27,601 nucleotides of DNA from a virus, in the IMG/VR virus record IMGVR_UViG_3300008954_000224, positions 1 to 27,601 of that record. The stretch is one strand, 5' to 3'. The notes under the pieces were generated by a model. That model saw only the letters and a list, made by a program, of their open reading frames with translations, was not told where the DNA came from and made no database searches. Position 1 is the stretch's first letter. Every line of letters starts with the position of its first letter. Of the stretch, positions 3,974-22,864 are shown piece by piece. A program made the translations under genes and the position numbers.

Positions 3974-4121
3974 ACTAACAGAACATGAACTATTAAATAG
4001 ACTTGATAATGAATTTTATGATGTTGATTTTCAAGTTGTAACAAGTGCAACAAGAGGTGTTGTAGCTACTGTTCAATTTTATGAAGATAAATTAGATGAG
4101 GAGTGTTGTACAGATGAATAA
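3966..4121 (+). CDS. Small hypothetical protein (51 aa)
   Basis: Begins MDKLTEHELL, with GAGGAGG about 9 bases upstream in the preceding gene. An amphipathic helix (residues 1-16) is followed by a probable beta-hairpin (19-41) and an acidic end with paired cysteines (EECCTDE). Not recognised. It overlaps the next gene by 8 bases. Confidence 0.55.
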   Translation: MDKLTEHELLNRLDNEFYDVDFQVVTSATRGVVATVQFYEDKLDEECCTDE

Positions 4122-5463
4122 AGATAATCATTATGTACTTATTACTTCCTTTAATGAAGAGGGATATAAACTTTATGCAAAAGATATGCTTAAAAGTTTT
4201 AAAAAGTTTTGGAATAAAGATGTAGAACTAGAAGCATGGTATCATGATTGTAAACTACCTGCTGATATTCCACGAGCTTCTAACATTATTTATAAAAATT
4301 TAAATGATGTAAAGGATATGATTAATTATAGAAAAAATATGGCTAGATATGATGGTACTCTTGGTGGCACAGTTGAATATGATTGGAGAAGAGATGCTAT
4401 TAAATGGTGTCATAAAGTTTATGCTATGACTGAAACAGCTAGAATGAGTAGTAGTAAATGGTTGATATGGTTAGATGCTGATACAGTTACTCATAAACCA
4501 GTACCAAAAAAATTTCTTAATGAGTTATGTAAAAAAGAAATAGATATACTTCATTTAGGTAGAACTGCAATAGATTATAGCGAAACTTCTTTCGTAGGAT
4601 TTAATTTACTTTCTGTGATGGCACAAGAATTTTTAGAAGATATGCGTGGTTGTTATAACATGGGTGAAACTATTGCATATAGAGAATGGCATGATGGTTT
4701 TATATTTGAACGTCTTCTCAAAATTCATATGGCTCATGGATTAGTAGCCCATAATCTTACGCCAAGTGTAAGAGGATTAGATGTATTTAATCAATCTTCT
4801 TTAAATAATTATCTACAACATTTCAAAGGATTTAAAGATATAAATGCTAGTAGATATACATTTCTTTATGATATGATAGAAAAATATAAAGCTAATAAAA
4901 TAATAGAAACTGGTACTTGGAATGGTGGTCGTGCTATCAAAATGGCAGATGCATCATTTAAACATACAGATGTAGTGCAATATATTGGATATGATTTATT
5001 TGGACTAGCTAATAATGAACTAGATAAAAAAGAATTTAATACAAAGACGCACCATACTTTAAAAGAAATACAAGATAGATTAGATAAGTATGCAAGAGAA
5101 AAGAAAAAACTAGGAAAAACATTTGAATATGTTCTTCATGAAGGAGATACAAAGGATACACTAAAAGAAAAAATGGATGCTGATTTTGTCTTTATTGATG
5201 GTGGACATTCATATGAAACAGTTAAACATGATTTTGAAATGTTAAAACATAATCCTCAAATTGTTCTTGATGATTTCTTTTTAGAGGATGATAATGGAAA
5301 GAAACCAAGTGAAGAACATTGTGGAGTTAATAAACTCTTTGAAGAAATTACATTACCAAAGAAAGTTTTAAAGACAAGAGACCCTGTAATGAGTGGGGGA
5401 GTTATTGGACTAGCTTTAGTAACTCAATGGAAACAACTCTTACATAATAAGGAGAATGTATAA
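4114..5463 (+). CDS. Glycosyltransferase-like plus methyltransferase-like fusion protein
   Basis: Start at 4114 (MNKDNHYVLI) is chosen because GAGGAG at 4098-4103 is 10 bases upstream; 4096 has none. Residues 1-235 resemble a GT-A glycosyltransferase: a VLITSFNEE start, a WLDADT segment with a DxD-type DAD at 121-123, and YREWHDGF near 195. Residues about 245-435 resemble a class I SAM methyltransferase (Methyltransf_24 type): IIETGTWNGG near 262 as the SAM loop and FIDGGHS near 361 as the acidic motif. Such two-domain proteins would modify a sugar or peptide on host or virion surface. A longer paralogue lies at 20516. Activity and substrate are inferred. Confidence 0.7.
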   Translation: MNKDNHYVLITSFNEEGYKLYAKDMLKSFKKFWNKDVELEAWYHDCKLPADIPRASNIIYKNLNDVKDMINYRKNMARYDGTLGGTVEYDWRRDAIKWCHKVYAMTETARMSSSKWLIWLDADTVTHKPVPKKFLNELCKKEIDILHLGRTAIDYSETSFVGFNLLSVMAQEFLEDMRGCYNMGETIAYREWHDGFIFERLLKIHMAHGLVAHNLTPSVRGLDVFNQSSLNNYLQHFKGFKDINASRYTFLYDMIEKYKANKIIETGTWNGGRAIKMADASFKHTDVVQYIGYDLFGLANNELDKKEFNTKTHHTLKEIQDRLDKYAREKKKLGKTFEYVLHEGDTKDTLKEKMDADFVFIDGGHSYETVKHDFEMLKHNPQIVLDDFFLEDDNGKKPSEEHCGVNKLFEEITLPKKVLKTRDPVMSGGVIGLALVTQWKQLLHNKENV

Positions 5464-5868: not shown

Positions 5869-6053
5869 GAATTAAAATTTCAAGAGTAGCTAAAGATATA
5901 GATGGTATACCACGAGCATTTACAATTAAAATAAATGGTAAAAAATATCCTAGAAATGTTAAAGGATTTTATTTTCCTGATGATAGAAAAAAAATTACTG
6001 CTATAAACCAAGCTATAGAAGATTATAAAATTGAGGAGAATGAATTAGCATGA
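5865..6053 (+). CDS. Small basic hypothetical protein (62 aa)
   Basis: Starts MRIKISRVAK at an ATGA overlap with the previous gene, with TTGGAG upstream. Basic, with a strand-rich centre and a C-terminal helix. Not recognised. It shares a 4-base ATGA overlap with the following SSB-like gene. Confidence 0.6.
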   Translation: MRIKISRVAKDIDGIPRAFTIKINGKKYPRNVKGFYFPDDRKKITAINQAIEDYKIEENELA

Positions 6054-6892
6054 GTACTATACAAGGTAAAGCATATTGGGCTTCAATCATTACTCCAAAT
6101 ACTACATTTGATACAGATGGAGTATGGTCTATAGATGTTGGTAATCTTAATAAAAAAAATAAAAAAAGAGCTGAAGAGAATGGATTAACTGTTAAGAATA
6201 GAGGTGATGATAGAGGTGATTTTGTTATCATTAAAAGAAAAGTTAGGCGTGCAGATGGTGATAAAAATAAACCACCAAAAATTATTGATGCTCAAAAGAA
6301 TGATATGTCTACAACTAGAGTTGGTAATGGTTCATTGGTTAATGTATTATATTCTACTTATGAATGGGAATTTAAAGAGCATAAAGGAGTTTCAGCAGAT
6401 TTACACGCAGTTCAAGTAATAAATTTAGTACCTTATAATTGTGATAATGAAGATGAAGCTTTTGAAGTAGTTCCTGAAGATAAAACTAAAACAAAAAAGG
6501 AGAAAGAAATGACTGAAGAAAATAGTTTTAAAATAAAGAGAGGTGAATTTGGTTATATTTATTGTATAACAAATGAGTCTTGGAAAGATTGGGTTAAAAT
6601 AGGTATGACTACTGGACTTAAATCTCGTATAGCAGGTTTTAATGCATGTAATCCTACTGAATGTAAAGTTATAGATTATCACATAACAGATAAGTTACAC
6701 TTTAATGAGCATGAAGTACACAAACATTTTAATAAGTTTATTAAGAAAAAGAAACGAAAAGAAAAAGTTAGTTCTACTAATACAACTTCGTTAGAGTGGC
6801 ATAATGTTTCTGTTGCAGAAGCTAAAGAATTATTTTCAAGTGCTATACAAAGTGTTAAAGCTACACATTTAGAAGAACAACTTGGAGAATAA
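6050..6892 (+). CDS. ssDNA-binding-like protein fused to GIY-YIG-type (T5orf172/MUG113) domain
   Basis: Residues 1-145 closely match the separate SSB at 13947 (KAYWASI, NTTFD.DGVWSIDVGNL, NRGDDRGDFV, LYSTYEWEFK, NLVPYN), a T7 gp2.5/DUF2815-like family. Its acidic C-terminal tail is replaced by a Lys-rich linker (KTKTKKEKE). Residues 163-280 carry a GIY-YIG-superfamily unit of the T5orf172/MUG113 kind: GYIYC (168-172), VKIGMT about 12 residues later and an acidic NEHEVHKHF further on. An internal, perfectly placed ribosome binding site at 6497 precedes an in-frame ATG at 6509, so the C-terminal part could also be made alone. Overlap ATGA with the preceding gene. The nuclease activity is inferred. 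Confidence 0.75.
   Translation: MSTIQGKAYWASIITPNTTFDTDGVWSIDVGNLNKKNKKRAEENGLTVKNRGDDRGDFVIIKRKVRRADGDKNKPPKIIDAQKNDMSTTRVGNGSLVNVLYSTYEWEFKEHKGVSADLHAVQVINLVPYNCDNEDEAFEVVPEDKTKTKKEKEMTEENSFKIKRGEFGYIYCITNESWKDWVKIGMTTGLKSRIAGFNACNPTECKVIDYHITDKLHFNEHEVHKHFNKFIKKKKRKEKVSSTNTTSLEWHNVSVAEAKELFSSAIQSVKATHLEEQLGE
6497..6511 (+). promoter_or_regulatory. Internal ribosome binding site and in-frame ATG
   Basis: AAGGAG at 6497-6502 followed 6 bases later by ATG (6509-6511), in frame with the fusion gene. It would give a 127-residue protein starting MTEENSFKIK that holds only the GIY-YIG-type domain. This is the strongest SD/ATG pair in the vicinity and is unlikely by chance. Confidence 0.65.
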
Positions 6893-12830: not shown

Positions 12831-13378
12831 AACAATTTACTTTGTTTGATATGAATGAAGAAGATTATATATCTGATGATATATCTACACATAAATGTAG
12901 AGAGTGTGAAAAAGTTAAACCTGTTCATTCTTTTAATACTAAAAATATAATACCTCCTCAAAAAAAAGAAGGAAGTTTTTTTCCTGTTCGTAGACAAACA
13001 CATAAAGGAGATGTTCAGCTATTTGTTTTATTTAATACTTGTAAAGAGTGTGATGCTAAAGGAAGAGCAGGAAGACATGCTAGATTACGTATGTATCCTA
13101 ACCCTCCTGAAGGTTATCATTGTCCTATATGTAAAAAAAATGAAGAAGAAATTTTTAGTAATCAAATAATTGTAGATAAAGACTATAATATTTATAAAAG
13201 AAAATATGATTTAAAGAGTGCTTGGCATCTTGACCATGACCATAAAACAGGAGAGTTTAGAGGTTGGTTATGTAGAACTTGTAATACAGGATTAGGAGCA
13301 ATGGGAGATACTATAGAAGGTCTTGAGAGAGCTATTAAATATTTGAAAGGAGACTTTGATGGAAGTACAGGAATTTAA
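12812..13378 (+). CDS. Recombination endonuclease VII (HNH type)
   Basis: C-terminal core WHLDHDHKTGEFRGWLC with H139-D141-H142-H144 and a downstream CRTCN, together with CPIC, forms the zinc-bound His-Me finger nuclease of phage endonuclease VII (PF02945). A second zinc module, CREC near residue 24 and CKEC near 73, sits in the N-terminal half. The protein resolves branched DNA and debranches concatemers. AGGA 5 bases upstream supports ATG 12812 (MGTDTLEQFT) over 12794. It starts inside the polymerase gene. Confidence 0.85.
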   Translation: MGTDTLEQFTLFDMNEEDYISDDISTHKCRECEKVKPVHSFNTKNIIPPQKKEGSFFPVRRQTHKGDVQLFVLFNTCKECDAKGRAGRHARLRMYPNPPEGYHCPICKKNEEEIFSNQIIVDKDYNIYKRKYDLKSAWHLDHDHKTGEFRGWLCRTCNTGLGAMGDTIEGLERAIKYLKGDFDGSTGI

Positions 13379-13901
13379 AGGTAGAAAAGATCATGCTGAT
13401 TATATCAAACGTGGTATAGCAGTAGAAAACTATTTTGTTAAGGAAGCAAAGAAGAGAGATTATAATATATGGATTGCTTCTGAAGAACAAAATATAAAAC
13501 AGCATATAGATTTAGTGCTACAAAAAGATGGAAAGGAGTTTAGTGTAGATGTAAAAGCTATAAGGACAGGGAATAAAAGTAGAGTACCTGATGATACTTG
13601 GATTGTTGTAGAATTTTTAAATACTATGGGTGATAAAGGTTGGCTCTATGGTAGTGCTGACTACATAGTGTTTGAAAGAATAAAAGATTTTGTATTTTGT
13701 AGTACAAAAGAATTAGTAGTTCTGGCACATAAACTTGTGAATAGAAATGACAGAGTTTCTAGTTATAAGGATGCTGAATACAAAGTTTGGGGTAGATTAT
13801 ATCAGGGTAAAAAAGATTTAATATCTAGGATGGAGATGTCCAAGATATTAGAATTAAAAAATACTTTTATATGGAAAAAAACTGTTGACATTTCTAATTA
13901 G
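13359..13901 (+). CDS. PD-(D/E)XK nuclease-like protein (180 aa)
   Basis: HIDLVL (D51) followed by SVDVKA (D64, K66) is a PD-(D/E)XK signature; upstream E25 could complete the site. The T7 equivalent in this gene position is endonuclease I, the Holliday-junction nuclease; a similar role is inferred, not shown. AAGGAG 6 bases before ATG 13359 fixes the start; a TTG at 13356 is not needed. Its end contains the -35 of the SSB promoter. Confidence 0.65.
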   Translation: MEVQEFKGRKDHADYIKRGIAVENYFVKEAKKRDYNIWIASEEQNIKQHIDLVLQKDGKEFSVDVKAIRTGNKSRVPDDTWIVVEFLNTMGDKGWLYGSADYIVFERIKDFVFCSTKELVVLAHKLVNRNDRVSSYKDAEYKVWGRLYQGKKDLISRMEMSKILELKNTFIWKKTVDISN

Positions 13902-13913
13902 ATGTGTCATAAT
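13885..13913 (+). promoter_or_regulatory. Promoter of the SSB unit
   Basis: TTGACA (13885-13890), a 17-bp spacer and CATAAT (13908-13913). The string TGTGTCATAATTAC here is identical to that at the Hsp20 promoter (19198 region), with the same spacer length. It begins in the last codons of the upstream nuclease gene. Leader of about 27 bases to the SSB start. Confidence 0.75.
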
Positions 13914-13946
13914 TACTTTATTAATAACTAGAAAAGGAGTACACCT

Positions 13947-14426
13947 ATGAGTGTAATAAAAGGAAACGCATATTGGGCATCAATCGTCAGCCCAAATACT
14001 ACATTCGATTCAGATGGAGTATGGTCAATAGACGTAGGTAATCTTGATAAGAAAAACATTGAGATTGCTAAAAATGATGGTCTCGAAATTAAGAATAAAG
14101 GAGATGATCGTGGAGATTTTGTTACTGTTAAACGTAAAGTTAGACGTAAGGATGGTAGCATGAATAAAGCACCTGAAGTTAAGGATGCACAAAAACGTAC
14201 CATGATTAATACATTAATTGGTAATGGTTCAGAAGTCAATGTACTTTATAGTACATATGAATGGGAGTTCAAAGGTCGTTCTGGAGTATCTGCTGATTTA
14301 CGTGCTATACAGGTAACTAATTTAGTACCTTACAATGTAGACGCTGATGCAGATGAAGCTTTTGAAATAGTTCCTGATGGATTTGTAAGTAATGAATCTG
14401 ATGAGGAAGTGTCTTTCGCTTCTTAA
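13947..14426 (+). CDS. Single-stranded DNA-binding protein (T7 gp2.5/DUF2815-like)
   Basis: Residues 1-130 match the phage OB-fold SSB family (GNAYWASIVSPN, DGVWSIDVGNL, GDDRGDFV, NGSEVNVLYS, GVSADLRAIQV). The tail after 130 is acidic (DADADEAFEIVPD ... ESDEE), as needed for partner binding in this family, although it ends SFAS rather than Phe. Expressed from its own promoter with a strong AAAGGAG and followed by its own terminator, it is probably made in large amount. A fused paralogue lies at 6050. 159 residues, close to the usual length. Confidence 0.8.
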   Translation: MSVIKGNAYWASIVSPNTTFDSDGVWSIDVGNLDKKNIEIAKNDGLEIKNKGDDRGDFVTVKRKVRRKDGSMNKAPEVKDAQKRTMINTLIGNGSEVNVLYSTYEWEFKGRSGVSADLRAIQVTNLVPYNVDADADEAFEIVPDGFVSNESDEEVSFAS

Positions 14427-14482: not shown

Positions 14483-15346
14483 ATGAAAACAATAGATACA
14501 TTAGTCAAAGATATTTATTCTTTATTTGATTCTAATATTGATAATAAAATAGATGAGAAAAAATTAGAAGAAAATTTAGATATATTTGTGAATGGTTTAA
14601 AAGAAGTTGTAACTGAATTTTTTAAAGAGAAACCTGCAGTAAAACGTAACTTACGTTTATCTTCTATAGGTAGACCTGCAAGACAACTTTGGTATGATAA
14701 AAATTCAGACAAAGATGTAATACCATTAGAACCTAGTACACGTATTAAGTTTTTATATGGTCATATTCTTGAGGAAGTATTACTTCTCTTCACACGTGTT
14801 GCAGGACATACAGTAACTGATCAACAAAAACAAATTGATGTTGGTGGTATTAAAGGACACCAAGATTGTATGATTGATGGTGTATTGGTTGATTGTAAGA
14901 GTGCATCAGGTAAAAGCTTTGAGAAGTTTGCTAAAGGAAATCTTCATGCTGATGATCCCTTTGGATATATAGCACAAATATCAGCTTATGCTGAAGGTAA
15001 TAATGTAGATGCAGGAGCATTCCTTGTTATAAATAAACAGAATGGAGAGATATGTTTAACACATGTACATTCAATGGAAATGATTGATGCTAAAGAAAGA
15101 GTTGAATATCTTAAAGGAGTTATGGAGAAAGACAATCCACCTGATAAGTGTTATCCTGATGTGCCTGATGGAGCTAGTGGTAATCGTAAGCTTGCTATTG
15201 GTTGCATCTATTGTCCACATAAGCGTACTTGTTGGAGTGATGCGAATGAAGGTAAAGGGTTACGTGTATTTCAGTATGCAAAAGGTTACAGGTTTCTTAC
15301 GCAAGTTAATAGGACACCTGATGTAGAGGAAGTTACAACATGGTAA
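14483..15346 (+). CDS. PD-(D/E)XK exonuclease, Cas4/RecB-like with Cys cluster
   Basis: Nuclease core GHQDCMIDGVLVDCKSASG (D131, D140, K142) preceded by GHILEE, typical of RecB/Cas4-family exonucleases, and QISAYA further on. Cysteines 223, 241, 244 and 250 (C-x17-C-x2-C-x5-C, in CIYCPHKRTCW) suggest a metal or Fe-S centre. It probably processes DNA ends in recombination or degrades host DNA, replacing T7 gp6. No Shine-Dalgarno is visible; the start directly follows the SSB terminator hairpin. Its last 7 bases overlap the homing endonuclease gene. Confidence 0.8.
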   Translation: MKTIDTLVKDIYSLFDSNIDNKIDEKKLEENLDIFVNGLKEVVTEFFKEKPAVKRNLRLSSIGRPARQLWYDKNSDKDVIPLEPSTRIKFLYGHILEEVLLLFTRVAGHTVTDQQKQIDVGGIKGHQDCMIDGVLVDCKSASGKSFEKFAKGNLHADDPFGYIAQISAYAEGNNVDAGAFLVINKQNGEICLTHVHSMEMIDAKERVEYLKGVMEKDNPPDKCYPDVPDGASGNRKLAIGCIYCPHKRTCWSDANEGKGLRVFQYAKGYRFLTQVNRTPDVEEVTTW

Positions 15347-16116
15347 ACCATTGGGTTAGGTATGATACTGAAGAATCTTTCGTACCTAATCTTGATAAGT
15401 TTGGTTTTGTTTATATCATAACCAATATGAAATCAGGTAAAGCATACGTAGGTTGTAAGCAATATTTTAGAGGTAAATCTAAAAAGAAAATGCAATGGGA
15501 AACTTATATAGGTTCTTCCAAGTATCTTAAAGCTGATATAGAAAAGATAGGTAAAGAACATTTTACTTTTGAAGTTATAGCAGAATATAAAAACAAAAGA
15601 AGTTTACGATACTATGAAGCATACTATCAAATGAAATGGGATGTACTTACTGCTGTGATAGAAGGTACAGATGAACCTGCTTATTATAATTCTTATGTAG
15701 GTGGTAAATTTTATAGACCTGTTGAAAGTTATCAAGATCCTGACTATTTAAAAAAACTTAGTGACTCTCATAAAGGACAGAAAGTATCTGATGAAACAAG
15801 AAAAAAACTTAGTGAGAAATTAAGTGGTTCTAATAATGGTATGTTTGGAAAGAAACAAACAGATGAAGCTAAAAAAAAGATAGGTGAATTTCAAAAAAAA
15901 TTAAGTCGTAATGGTAGACCACCAGAAGTAAAAGAAAAGATACGTCAATCTTTATTAGGACATAAAGTATCTGATGAAACCAGAAAGAAACTTAGTAAAG
16001 CTCATAAAGGTCATCCAATTTCAAATAAAACTAAAGGTATACTTTCTAAAAAAATGAAATTAATTTGGAAAAAAAGAAAGGAGGTAAAAGATGTCAGTAA
16101 AAAAGTCAATGTATGA
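15340..16116 (+). CDS. GIY-YIG homing endonuclease with NUMOD3 repeats
   Basis: GFVYIITNMKSGKAYVGCKQ (residues 22-41) is a GIY-YIG catalytic start, with a conserved E near YYEAYY. The C-terminal half contains NUMOD3-type DNA-binding repeats: KLSDSHKGQKVSDETRKK, NGMFGKKQTDEAKKKIGE, and a further SDETRKKLSKAHKGH. 258 residues is standard for Seg/GIY-type free-standing mobile endonucleases. It overlaps the upstream exonuclease by 7 bases, so it appears to have inserted between replication genes. It probably spreads itself into related phages by cutting their homologous locus. Confidence 0.85.
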   Translation: MVNHWVRYDTEESFVPNLDKFGFVYIITNMKSGKAYVGCKQYFRGKSKKKMQWETYIGSSKYLKADIEKIGKEHFTFEVIAEYKNKRSLRYYEAYYQMKWDVLTAVIEGTDEPAYYNSYVGGKFYRPVESYQDPDYLKKLSDSHKGQKVSDETRKKLSEKLSGSNNGMFGKKQTDEAKKKIGEFQKKLSRNGRPPEVKEKIRQSLLGHKVSDETRKKLSKAHKGHPISNKTKGILSKKMKLIWKKRKEVKDVSKKVNV

Positions 16117-19730: not shown

Positions 19731-20519
19731 ATGAGTAAAAAAAAGAAAAGTATAAATACAGTTTATATAGGATATGATCCTAGAGAATATGCTGCTTACG
19801 AAGTTCTAAAGTTTTCAATAGAACGAATATCAATGGAACCTGTTAGAGTTTTACCAATTAAGAAACCTATTGTAGAACGTATGGGTTTATATAATAGAAA
19901 ACATGAGATACTACAAGGTCAACCTTACGATATAATAGATGGAAGACCTTTCTCAACTGACTTTTCTTTTACTAGATTTTTAGTACCTGCTCTTAATATG
20001 TATGAAGGATATGCATTATTTATGGATTGTGATATGTATGTTCGTACAGATATATCTGAATTATTTGAAATGTGTGATAATAAATATTATCCTTTGTGGT
20101 GTGTACATCATAAGTATGAACCTAAAAAAGGTTTAAAGATGGATGGTAAATTACAAGAACCCTATCGTAGAAAGAACTGGTCAAGTCTTATGATGTTTAA
20201 TTGTGGACATGATTTAAATAAAAGACTTACAGTTGAAGATGTTAATACTAAATCAGGTAGATGGCTACATGGATTTGAGTGGCTACCAGATAAAGAAGCA
20301 GATATAGGTAGAATACCTGAAGAATGGAATTGGTTGGATGGACATTCAGATGTTAAGTTAGAAGCAAAGAATGTACACTTTACAACAGGTGGTCCTTGGT
20401 TTAAAGATTGGGGTCCAAAGAGAGACCAAGATACTAAGTATGGTATTGAATGGGTTAATGATGCCAGATGGTTACAGATGAATGGATTATTAGATGAAGC
20501 AAAGGACTATGTTATATGA
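19731..20519 (+). CDS. Glycosyltransferase-like protein (GT-A fold)
   Basis: Start VYIGYDPREYAAYEVL (residues 11-26) and MDCDMYVRTD with a DxD-like D99-x-D101 mark a GT-A-type, GT8-like nucleotide-sugar transferase. Further motifs: SSLMMFNCGH and VHFTTGGPWF, the latter with His for sugar or metal contact. 262 residues, soluble. GGAG upstream of the ATG follows the Hsp20 terminator. It overlaps the GT-MT-DUF115 gene by ATGA, so they probably work as a pathway on the same glycan. Confidence 0.75.
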   Translation: MSKKKKSINTVYIGYDPREYAAYEVLKFSIERISMEPVRVLPIKKPIVERMGLYNRKHEILQGQPYDIIDGRPFSTDFSFTRFLVPALNMYEGYALFMDCDMYVRTDISELFEMCDNKYYPLWCVHHKYEPKKGLKMDGKLQEPYRRKNWSSLMMFNCGHDLNKRLTVEDVNTKSGRWLHGFEWLPDKEADIGRIPEEWNWLDGHSDVKLEAKNVHFTTGGPWFKDWGPKRDQDTKYGIEWVNDARWLQMNGLLDEAKDYVI

Positions 20520-22864
20520 CAAAAATAAATTTTGTTACTTCATTTAATGAAGATATTTTAAAGAATGTTGGACATCATTTTTTAAAATCAATTAGTGAAC
20601 ATTGGGAACCTTCTTTAAATCTTGCATGTTATACACATGACTGTTCATTAGAAAGTTATTCTCTTCCTAAAAATAAATCTATTTCTTATAAACAATTAGA
20701 TAATATAGAAGATTATAAAACTTTTAAAGAAACTAATTCAATACATGATGGTACAGAGAATGGACAAGTTGCTTATAATTGGAGACTTGATGTTATCAGA
20801 TGGGCACATAAAGTATATGCTCTAACAGAATATGCTTTTGAATTAGCAGAAAAAGATAAAGAAGCAGGTTGGTTAATATGGATTGATGCTGATTCTTTTG
20901 CTAAGAAAAGATTAGTATCTGATGATATACTTGCTATGCTACCTGAAGCTTGTGATGTAGCTTATGCAGGTATCAGAACAACAGATGATAATGTACAATA
21001 TCTTGATACATCTTTTATGGCTTTTAATTTAAATAAAAAACCTGCTCTTGATTTACTAGGTGATTTAAGAGGTGCTTATAATTCAGGAGAATTAATTTCT
21101 TATAGAGAATGGCATGATGCATTTATAACAGAAAGATTATTAAATATTTATAAAGCACATGGAATGAAGATTATATCTTTGAATGGTATATCTGATTATG
21201 TTATGCACTTTAAAGGTATTCAAGATATAACTATGTTACCTGTTAGAGATAGTTCTGGTAGAAGATTATTTAATTTATCTGATGATGATACAAGTCCAGA
21301 TATTATGCCCACGAGATATAAACAAATTTTAGAAATTATAGAGGAGTATAAACCTAAATCAATTATCGAAGTAGGTACATGGAATGCAGGTCGTGCTATT
21401 GAAATGGCTCTTACTTCTTTCAAACACCATGATGAAATAGTTTATAAAGGTTTTGATTTATTTGAAGATGCTACTACTGAAACAGATATAGAAGAATTTA
21501 ATGTTAAAGCTCATAATACTCAGTCTGCAGTAATAAAAAGACTACAAGAATTTAGAGCTAAGATGATGAAAGATAAAAAAGTATTTACATTTGAAATAGG
21601 TAAAGGTAATTCCAGAGATATATTAAAAGATCGTACTGATTTAAATGCTGACTTTGTTTTAATAGGTGGTGGCAATAGTATTAAAACAGTAGCAAGTGAT
21701 TACAAACATTTAAAACACAATCCTATTGTTATGATTGATCATTATTTTTTAGAAGATAAAGATGGTAATCAAACTCCTGAAGAATTTCAAGGTGCAAATA
21801 AAGTATTAGATCAACTTAAAAAAGAAAAGAATAAAAGTATTAGACAATGGGTATTACCTTCAGCAGATAAAGTTCGTGGTGGTGGTCACACACATCTAGC
21901 TATTATTTTAAATGATAAAAAATTATCTAACATTCCTAAATCTCTTTTAAATGTACCTATTGTAGTTAATCCTAGAGATTGTGTATCAAAAGATTATATA
22001 CGTAATAATATAAAAGAGAATATGACTTTAATAGATGAGAAAAAATGGTTAGGAAAATATCTTTATCATTCAGGTAGAGCTATTATAGTTTCAGGAGGAC
22101 CTTATACAAACTATGATGAATTAAAAGCTACTATTAAAAAGTATGATGGTGAAGCAAAGATTGTATGTGTTAAACATTCTTATTTAAATTTATTAAAACA
22201 TGGAATACAACCTTGGGCTTGTGTTGTTCTTGATCCTAGACCTATTACAGGTACAAGTACACATGGTATAGTAAGAAAAGATTTATTTAAAGAGGTTGAT
22301 TCGAAAACTAAATTCTTTGTAGCTTCTATGACTGATCCTTCTGTTACAAAATATCTAAAAGAAAAAGATGCAAACATATGGGGATGGCACGCATTTACAG
22401 AATCATTAAGAGACCCTGAAGAACAGAAAAAAGGTATACAAAATAATGCAGTTAAAGTAAATGAAGAGTTAGGTATACCACTAGGAGCTACTCTTATAAC
22501 AGGTGGTACGTGTGCTGCTATGAGAACCATAGGTATCATGCACACTATGGGCTTTAGAGCTTTTGATTTATTTGGTTTTGATTGTAATATGGAAGAACCT
22601 ACTAAAGAAATGAAAAAAGAAACTACTGGTGCTGAAGATGAAGAACCAAGACCAAAGTATTTTCAAGTAGGTGTAAAGGATAAAAGTTATTGGACAACAG
22701 GAGAACTATTAGCTATGGCTCAAGATTGTGAAAGAACTTTTGCTGATCAAAAAATGGAAATGGATTTTACTTTTCATGGAGAGAATACATTAGTAGCTTC
22801 TTTATGGGAAATAGCTCAAGAAAATAAACAACATAAAACTTTTGAGGAAATATTTAATGACTGA
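20516..22864 (+). CDS. Three-domain GT / methyltransferase-like / DUF115 protein (782 aa)
   Basis: Residues 1-240 are a GT-A-like domain with WLIWIDADS (DAD 124-126) and YREWHDAF; 275-460 a class I methyltransferase-like fold with IIEVGTWNAG; 515-700 a DUF115/MptE-like domain (RAIIVSGGPY, WACVVLDPRP, LITGGTCAA, FDLFGFDC). The first two domains are a paralogue of the protein at 4114. In that one the acidic methyltransferase motif is FIDGGHS; here it reads LIGGGNS (near 383), so catalysis is doubtful and the domain may only bind. DUF115 members act in flagellin or surface glycosylation. Overlaps neighbours at both ends. Confidence 0.75.
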   Translation: MTKINFVTSFNEDILKNVGHHFLKSISEHWEPSLNLACYTHDCSLESYSLPKNKSISYKQLDNIEDYKTFKETNSIHDGTENGQVAYNWRLDVIRWAHKVYALTEYAFELAEKDKEAGWLIWIDADSFAKKRLVSDDILAMLPEACDVAYAGIRTTDDNVQYLDTSFMAFNLNKKPALDLLGDLRGAYNSGELISYREWHDAFITERLLNIYKAHGMKIISLNGISDYVMHFKGIQDITMLPVRDSSGRRLFNLSDDDTSPDIMPTRYKQILEIIEEYKPKSIIEVGTWNAGRAIEMALTSFKHHDEIVYKGFDLFEDATTETDIEEFNVKAHNTQSAVIKRLQEFRAKMMKDKKVFTFEIGKGNSRDILKDRTDLNADFVLIGGGNSIKTVASDYKHLKHNPIVMIDHYFLEDKDGNQTPEEFQGANKVLDQLKKEKNKSIRQWVLPSADKVRGGGHTHLAIILNDKKLSNIPKSLLNVPIVVNPRDCVSKDYIRNNIKENMTLIDEKKWLGKYLYHSGRAIIVSGGPYTNYDELKATIKKYDGEAKIVCVKHSYLNLLKHGIQPWACVVLDPRPITGTSTHGIVRKDLFKEVDSKTKFFVASMTDPSVTKYLKEKDANIWGWHAFTESLRDPEEQKKGIQNNAVKVNEELGIPLGATLITGGTCAAMRTIGIMHTMGFRAFDLFGFDCNMEEPTKEMKKETTGAEDEEPRPKYFQVGVKDKSYWTTGELLAMAQDCERTFADQKMEMDFTFHGENTLVASLWEIAQENKQHKTFEEIFND

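Follow-up and report, generated by a model that had tools for sequence, protein, structure and literature searches.

A T5orf172 GIY-YIG nuclease domain joined in frame to a gp2.5-type SSB paralogue in a phage resembling Pelagibacter phages

The phage and the locus

The window analysed here, a 27.6 kb stretch of DNA with a GC content of 30%, is an IMG/VR virus fragment from a marine phage and is nearly identical along its full length to the 59.6 kb contig G002. It encodes a primase-helicase, a family A polymerase, endonuclease VII, a gp2.5-type SSB and a Cas4-like exonuclease, as well as a class II ribonucleotide reductase, an Hsp20-like protein and TerS. Both gene content and gene order are like those of the Pelagibacter phages HTVC115P, HTVC104P and HTVC103P, and the polymerases of these three are the closest among isolates (45% identity). 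An intact gene for a SegE-type GIY-YIG homing endonuclease with NUMOD3 motifs (15340-16116) lies 3' of the Cas4-like gene, a neighbourhood where relatives carry the TerS-GIY genes described below. The phage also encodes two glycosyltransferase/methyltransferase-like proteins (4096-5463 and 20516-22864) that share 37% identity with one another. The features considered here are listed in Table 1.

Table 1. Features of the SSB-GIY gene and of the canonical SSB gene in the window
Feature	Position	Strand	Basis
SSB-GIY fusion gene, 280 aa	6050..6892	+	open frame; whole in L001-L003, L005-L009
gp2.5/Enc34-type SSB domain, residues 1-142	6050..6475	+	BLASTP to own SSB, gp2.5 profile, Foldseek, conserved positions
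Disordered lysine-rich linker, residues 143-167 (KTKTKKEKEM...)	6476..6550	+	pLDDT; in-frame length variation
Internal Shine-Dalgarno AAGGAG (6497-6502) and ATG (6509-6511)	6497..6511	+	sequence; kept in L005, L008
Candidate free nuclease, 127 aa, if the start is 6509	6509..6892	+	size class of standalone T5orf172 proteins
T5orf172 GIY-YIG nuclease domain, residues 168-262	6551..6835	+	Pfam PF10544, PF13455; alignment; model
Sigma70-like promoter TTGACA-17-CATAAT before canonical SSB	13885..13913	+	11/12 matches, best in scanned region
Canonical SSB of the phage, 159 aa; the type from which the duplicated half derives	13947..14426	+	BLASTP, tree, conserved positions

The two halves of the fusion protein

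The fusion gene is a single frame with no internal stops. A sequence-only reading had taken its N-terminal part for a second SSB, and this identification held. The SSB half is 65% identical to the canonical SSB of the same phage over 156 residues (BLASTP, E 8e-75), and its profile matches T7 gp2.5 (1je5; HMM, E 3.5e-7). The AlphaFold model of the 280 aa protein, which has a mean pLDDT of 87, matched gp2.5, Enc34 SSB and DUF2815 structures in Foldseek (E 5.6e-7 to 1e-4). By profile, structure and identity to the phage's own SSB, this half is an OB-fold domain homologous to gp2.5. In a Pfam search, it scored 15.9 bits with PF10991, the model for this SSB family, which is below the cut-off of 26. 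When the 63 positions conserved among 59 canonical SSBs were used as a reference, the fusion half in the window retained 54, and the halves in the two further fusion lineages described below retained 55 and 46. The likeness to the T7 gp2.5/Enc34 family (PF10991, DUF2815) is confined to the N-terminal half; in place of the acidic C-terminal tail with its terminal Phe, the fusion has a linker and a nuclease. The terminal Phe is missing from all three fusion lineages, and the L005 fusion retains an internal DDNDLTF.

The C-terminal half had been described as T5orf172/MUG113-like, and both Pfam profiles exceeded their cut-offs, PF10544 (T5orf172) at 45.2 bits against 20 (1.4e-11, residues 168-262) and PF13455 (MUG113) at 29.4 bits against 22.3 (1.2e-6). 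The GIY and YIG motif residues (G168/Y171 and K183/G185) and the conserved Arg (R193) and Glu (E220) are present, and in the alignment these six, together with E249 and W250, are invariant among relatives. The first helix lacks the His/Tyr that GIY-YIG nucleases usually have there. Modelled in isolation, the domain has a pLDDT of 87 and the expected order beta-beta-alpha-beta-alpha. Most of the top-ranking PDB structures for it were GIY-YIG proteins (Slx1, UPF0213), but the matches were not significant, with E values of 1.6 and worse; the nuclease profile found no relevant match among PDB sequences. The earlier reading had hinged on a GIY-YIG fold at this end, and by profile the domain is indeed GIY-YIG. 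No relatives of the GIY domain were found in host genome contigs. The domain also matches the PADLOC candidate defence model PDC-S57 (6536-6892, E 1.5e-11).

Both halves are confidently modelled in the full-length protein, except for the linker, where residues 143-159 have pLDDT values below 50, and one loop. As the pTM is 0.51, no fixed arrangement of the two halves is predicted. The segment from the SSB core to the KEKEM of the linker is 20, 37 and 22 residues long in the three lineages. These differences of 17 and 2 codons are in frame, and the segment contains no stops.

The AAGGAG and ATG that were proposed as an internal start are exactly where the sequence-only reading placed them, at the domain junction and with a spacer of 6 between them. 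They are kept in all three SSB-type lineages (AAGGAA in L005 and AAGGAG in L008) and are missing from L035, where the partner of the nuclease is not an SSB. An internal Shine-Dalgarno sequence is by itself not rare, as SD-like matches of at least five bases precede 8 of the 135 internal in-frame ATGs in the window. The conserved pair is thus no more than suggestive of a working start, which would yield a product of the size of the standalone T5orf172 proteins of other phages (about 100-130 aa).

Recurrence of the fusion and selection on its halves

An identical gene was found in four other metagenomes (L001-L003 and L007), and L004, from a fifth, has the 3' part. Two divergent lineages of the fusion, each from two metagenomes, are 63% (L005/L006) and 58% (L008/L009) identical to it. 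As the gene is present in contigs from five other metagenomes and the fusion in two divergent lineages, it is not an assembly artefact, and the homologous fusion elsewhere on which the earlier reading also depended does exist. The fusion is known only from these three lineages of one phage group. No earlier description of an SSB joined to a GIY-YIG domain was found in the NAR Genom Bioinform survey text or in the full-text literature accessible without subscription.

Selection was examined by codon maximum likelihood (ML; GY94/F3x4) with three sequences, those of the window, L005 and L008. Omega was 0.27 for the SSB half (95% CI 0.18-0.42; LRT against 1, 27.7) and 0.08 for the nuclease half (0.05-0.125; LRT 73.6), indicating purifying selection on both, and the two halves differed from one another (LRT 10.1). 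The primase, polymerase and Cas4-like genes gave reference values of 0.07-0.10. Because both halves are under purifying selection and the linker indels are in frame, we consider it very probable that the fusion is translated in full and that a joint 280 aa protein is made. The SSB half would then not be a relic, though it is less constrained. As constraint on it is approximately 3-fold weaker than on the nuclease half, it could be partly degenerate.

Two other interpretations of the substitution data were rejected. Diversifying selection on the SSB half was suggested by an NG86 dN/dS of approximately 1, but ML with F3x4 gave the value of 0.27 reported above, and we take the NG86 value to be an artefact of the AT-rich codon composition. 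Recent horizontal exchange of the fusion gene, suggested by low NG86 dS, was not upheld by ML dS; fourfold differences are fewer in two of the three pairs, a count that is confounded by low GC3.

The canonical SSB and its upstream gene

In many relatives, the canonical SSB shares an open frame with an upstream PD-(D/E)XK-like gene (approximately 20 of 70 distinct SSB ORFs), as in L005 (6266-7345), L008 (9967-11043) and L035 (5383-6483). A stop separates the two genes in the window (13356-14426). We considered this arrangement as a second SSB-nuclease fusion and rejected it. The conserved 'linker' coincides with the sigma70-like promoter, and as the conserved junction is promoter-like sequence, the joint frame is probably read-through.

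The canonical SSBs of L005 (6866-7342) and L008 (10567-11040) are of an outlier type, 45-51% identical to the rest, although the primases of these phages closely resemble that of the window. The fusion halves of L005 and L008 resemble the SSBs of other phages more than their own canonical SSBs. The possibility that the SSBs of carriers have diverged as a means of escape was set aside, as fast evolution and ancestry account equally well for this pattern.

An optional gene with exchangeable partners

In L142 (contig G009), which has a primase 87% identical to that of the window, the genes that flank the fusion in L005/L006 to the left and right are only 125 bp apart and the SSB-GIY gene is absent. 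Thus, occupied (L005/L006) and empty (L142) alleles of one site exist, as expected of a homing gene, and the SSB-GIY gene is optional at a fixed locus. The same neighbour genes are also adjacent in L035. There, the nearest other nuclease domain of the same GIY subtype (50-55% identity) is found slightly downstream, in the interval of the lysozyme and 8457-like genes, fused to two TerS-like domains. This type was found at L035 1-978 and L100 3037-4104, and the motif KVEDIPI directly upstream of the nuclease is common to L035 and L008. A second GIY subtype (approximately 30% identity) is carried on a TerS paralogue in L025 (3279-4043), L058 (5162-5914), L062 (6096-6836) and L107-L117, and G016 and G017 have a TerS-GIY gene plus a separate TerS.

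The nuclease module is therefore seen alone, with an SSB and with TerS-like domains. As it occurs standalone (approximately 100-130 aa) or with other partners, we conclude that it has been captured and shuffled. In the SSB tree, no canonical SSB groups with the fusion halves; the halves of the window and L005 are together (96/86), and that of L008 is on a long branch. The sequence-only reading had proposed that a mobile nuclease gene was captured in frame behind a duplicated SSB. The capture itself is well supported, with an in-frame junction, homologous fusions elsewhere, and standalone forms and other partners of the nuclease in its favour. Mobility is supported in the sense of presence or absence at a fixed place, rather than as homing.

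Comparison with known systems

The best precedent is Odn of vibriophage ICP1, whose T5orf172 domain, attached to a RepA_N domain, cleaves the origin of a satellite (PMC8263062). Both proteins are short and accessory, and combine a T5orf172 domain with a copy of a replication-protein domain; the nuclease domain of Odn is also without the usual helix-1 His/Tyr (PMC8263062). However, the partner in Odn is the sequence-specific initiator domain of the satellite, whereas here it is an ssDNA-binding paralogue of the phage's own SSB. By analogy, the fusion may be read as a chimera of the Odn kind in which the targeting module is new and would bring the nuclease to ssDNA or to replication intermediates.

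Exchange of modules is common among T5orf172 genes (PMC10448857). The T5orf172 homing endonucleases of ICP1, T5-like and Aeromonas phages resemble the fusion in their domain, their exchange of partners and their position near essential replication or packaging genes, but 87% of those surveyed have CapR/DUF723/DUF4397 zinc-finger modules, and the part of the survey examined describes none with an SSB partner. The TerS-GIY chimeras of related marine phages (L035, and the L058, L062 and L025 types) likewise join a T5orf172 domain to the paralogue of a phage protein that handles DNA. In these, the partner is a small-terminase DNA-binding domain rather than an SSB, and the L058-type nuclease is only distantly related.

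What the fusion protein may do

We tentatively favour, at a little less than an even chance, a chimeric nuclease in which a mobile T5orf172 cutter is targeted by a diverged duplicate of the phage's own gp2.5-type SSB. The SSB half would hold the nuclease on ssDNA or on SSB-coated replication or recombination intermediates, either directly or through contact with SSB or replisome proteins, and the flexible linker would let the GIY-YIG domain nick or cut DNA nearby. The most likely use would be Odn-like, in conflict with a related phage or satellite replicating in the same cell, possibly assisted by homing into gene-free genomes. A role in competition is plausible, as an intron-encoded homing endonuclease contributes to viral competition in co-infection (PMC11620839). 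The internal ribosome-binding site and ATG are probably left over from a separate nuclease gene and may still give some free nuclease. A more specific version, in which one frame gives two products and the full-length protein marks ssDNA or SSB-coated intermediates and so attacks rival replicons at their forks rather than by sequence, seems unlikely to us. As far as is known, gp2.5 binds ssDNA without sequence preference. The favoured chimera would therefore, unlike Odn, have no obvious way to spare its own genome; sparing could come from a preference of the GIY-YIG domain for certain cut sites, from timing or from low expression. The missing helix-1 His/Tyr (missing from Odn as well), the weaker constraint on the SSB half and the restriction of the fusion to three lineages of one phage group also count against the favoured reading.

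The same locus could instead belong to a selfish homing endonuclease that spreads by cutting the gene-free locus upstream of the primase, with the SSB half a captured DNA-binding aid to cleavage or recombination. The occupied and empty versions of one site fit this, T5orf172 genes lie near replication genes and are in many phages regarded as homing endonuclease genes (PMC10448857), and the intact SegE-type gene is nearby. However, an SSB does not supply sequence specificity, the flanking DNA revealed no fixed cleavage sequence, and as related TerS-GIY genes lie elsewhere in the same region a single conserved target site is not evident. We consider this explanation rather unlikely, though it carries appreciable weight.

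Two further explanations appear improbable. The gene's place in the replication region, its tight operon-like overlap with its neighbours and the purifying selection on it would suit an enzyme of phage DNA metabolism, an SSB-tethered nuclease that trims flaps, resolves replication or recombination intermediates, or breaks down host DNA where it is single-stranded. Branched DNA is a substrate of GIY-YIG enzymes like Slx1 (PMC1564403), to which the nuclease domain has a weak structural similarity. Distribution argues against such a role, which we think quite improbable, as the gene is patchy and was not found in relatives whose primase and polymerase are 75-87% identical (though not all of these contigs are complete), and endonuclease VII and Cas4-like nucleases are already among the phage's own products. 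Equally doubtful is the suggestion that the SSB paralogue has lost its function and that the real product is free nuclease from the ATG at 6509, the upstream frame being incidental. The Shine-Dalgarno sequence and ATG at the junction in every SSB-type lineage are consistent with it, as are the absence of a Shine-Dalgarno sequence ahead of the SSB start in L008 and the commonness of standalone T5orf172 proteins of this size, and the read-through in relatives indicates that in-frame joins can be incidental. Against this, omega for the SSB half is significantly below 1, 46-55 of the 63 conserved SSB positions are kept, and indels are in frame and the linker free of stops in every lineage.

Implications

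The SSB-GIY fusion adds to the known modular T5orf172 nucleases. These were already known to exchange sequence-specific DNA-binding modules, and in Odn such an exchange became an anti-parasite weapon. A swap to an SSB paralogue that is under selection, paralleled by the TerS chimeras, suggests aiming at a state of DNA (ssDNA, forks or packaging substrates) and not at sequence alone. If the less likely, two-product reading given above were correct, the SSB and TerS chimeras would represent a wider strategy, in which a T5orf172 cutter is placed on paralogues of the phage's own DNA-handling proteins.
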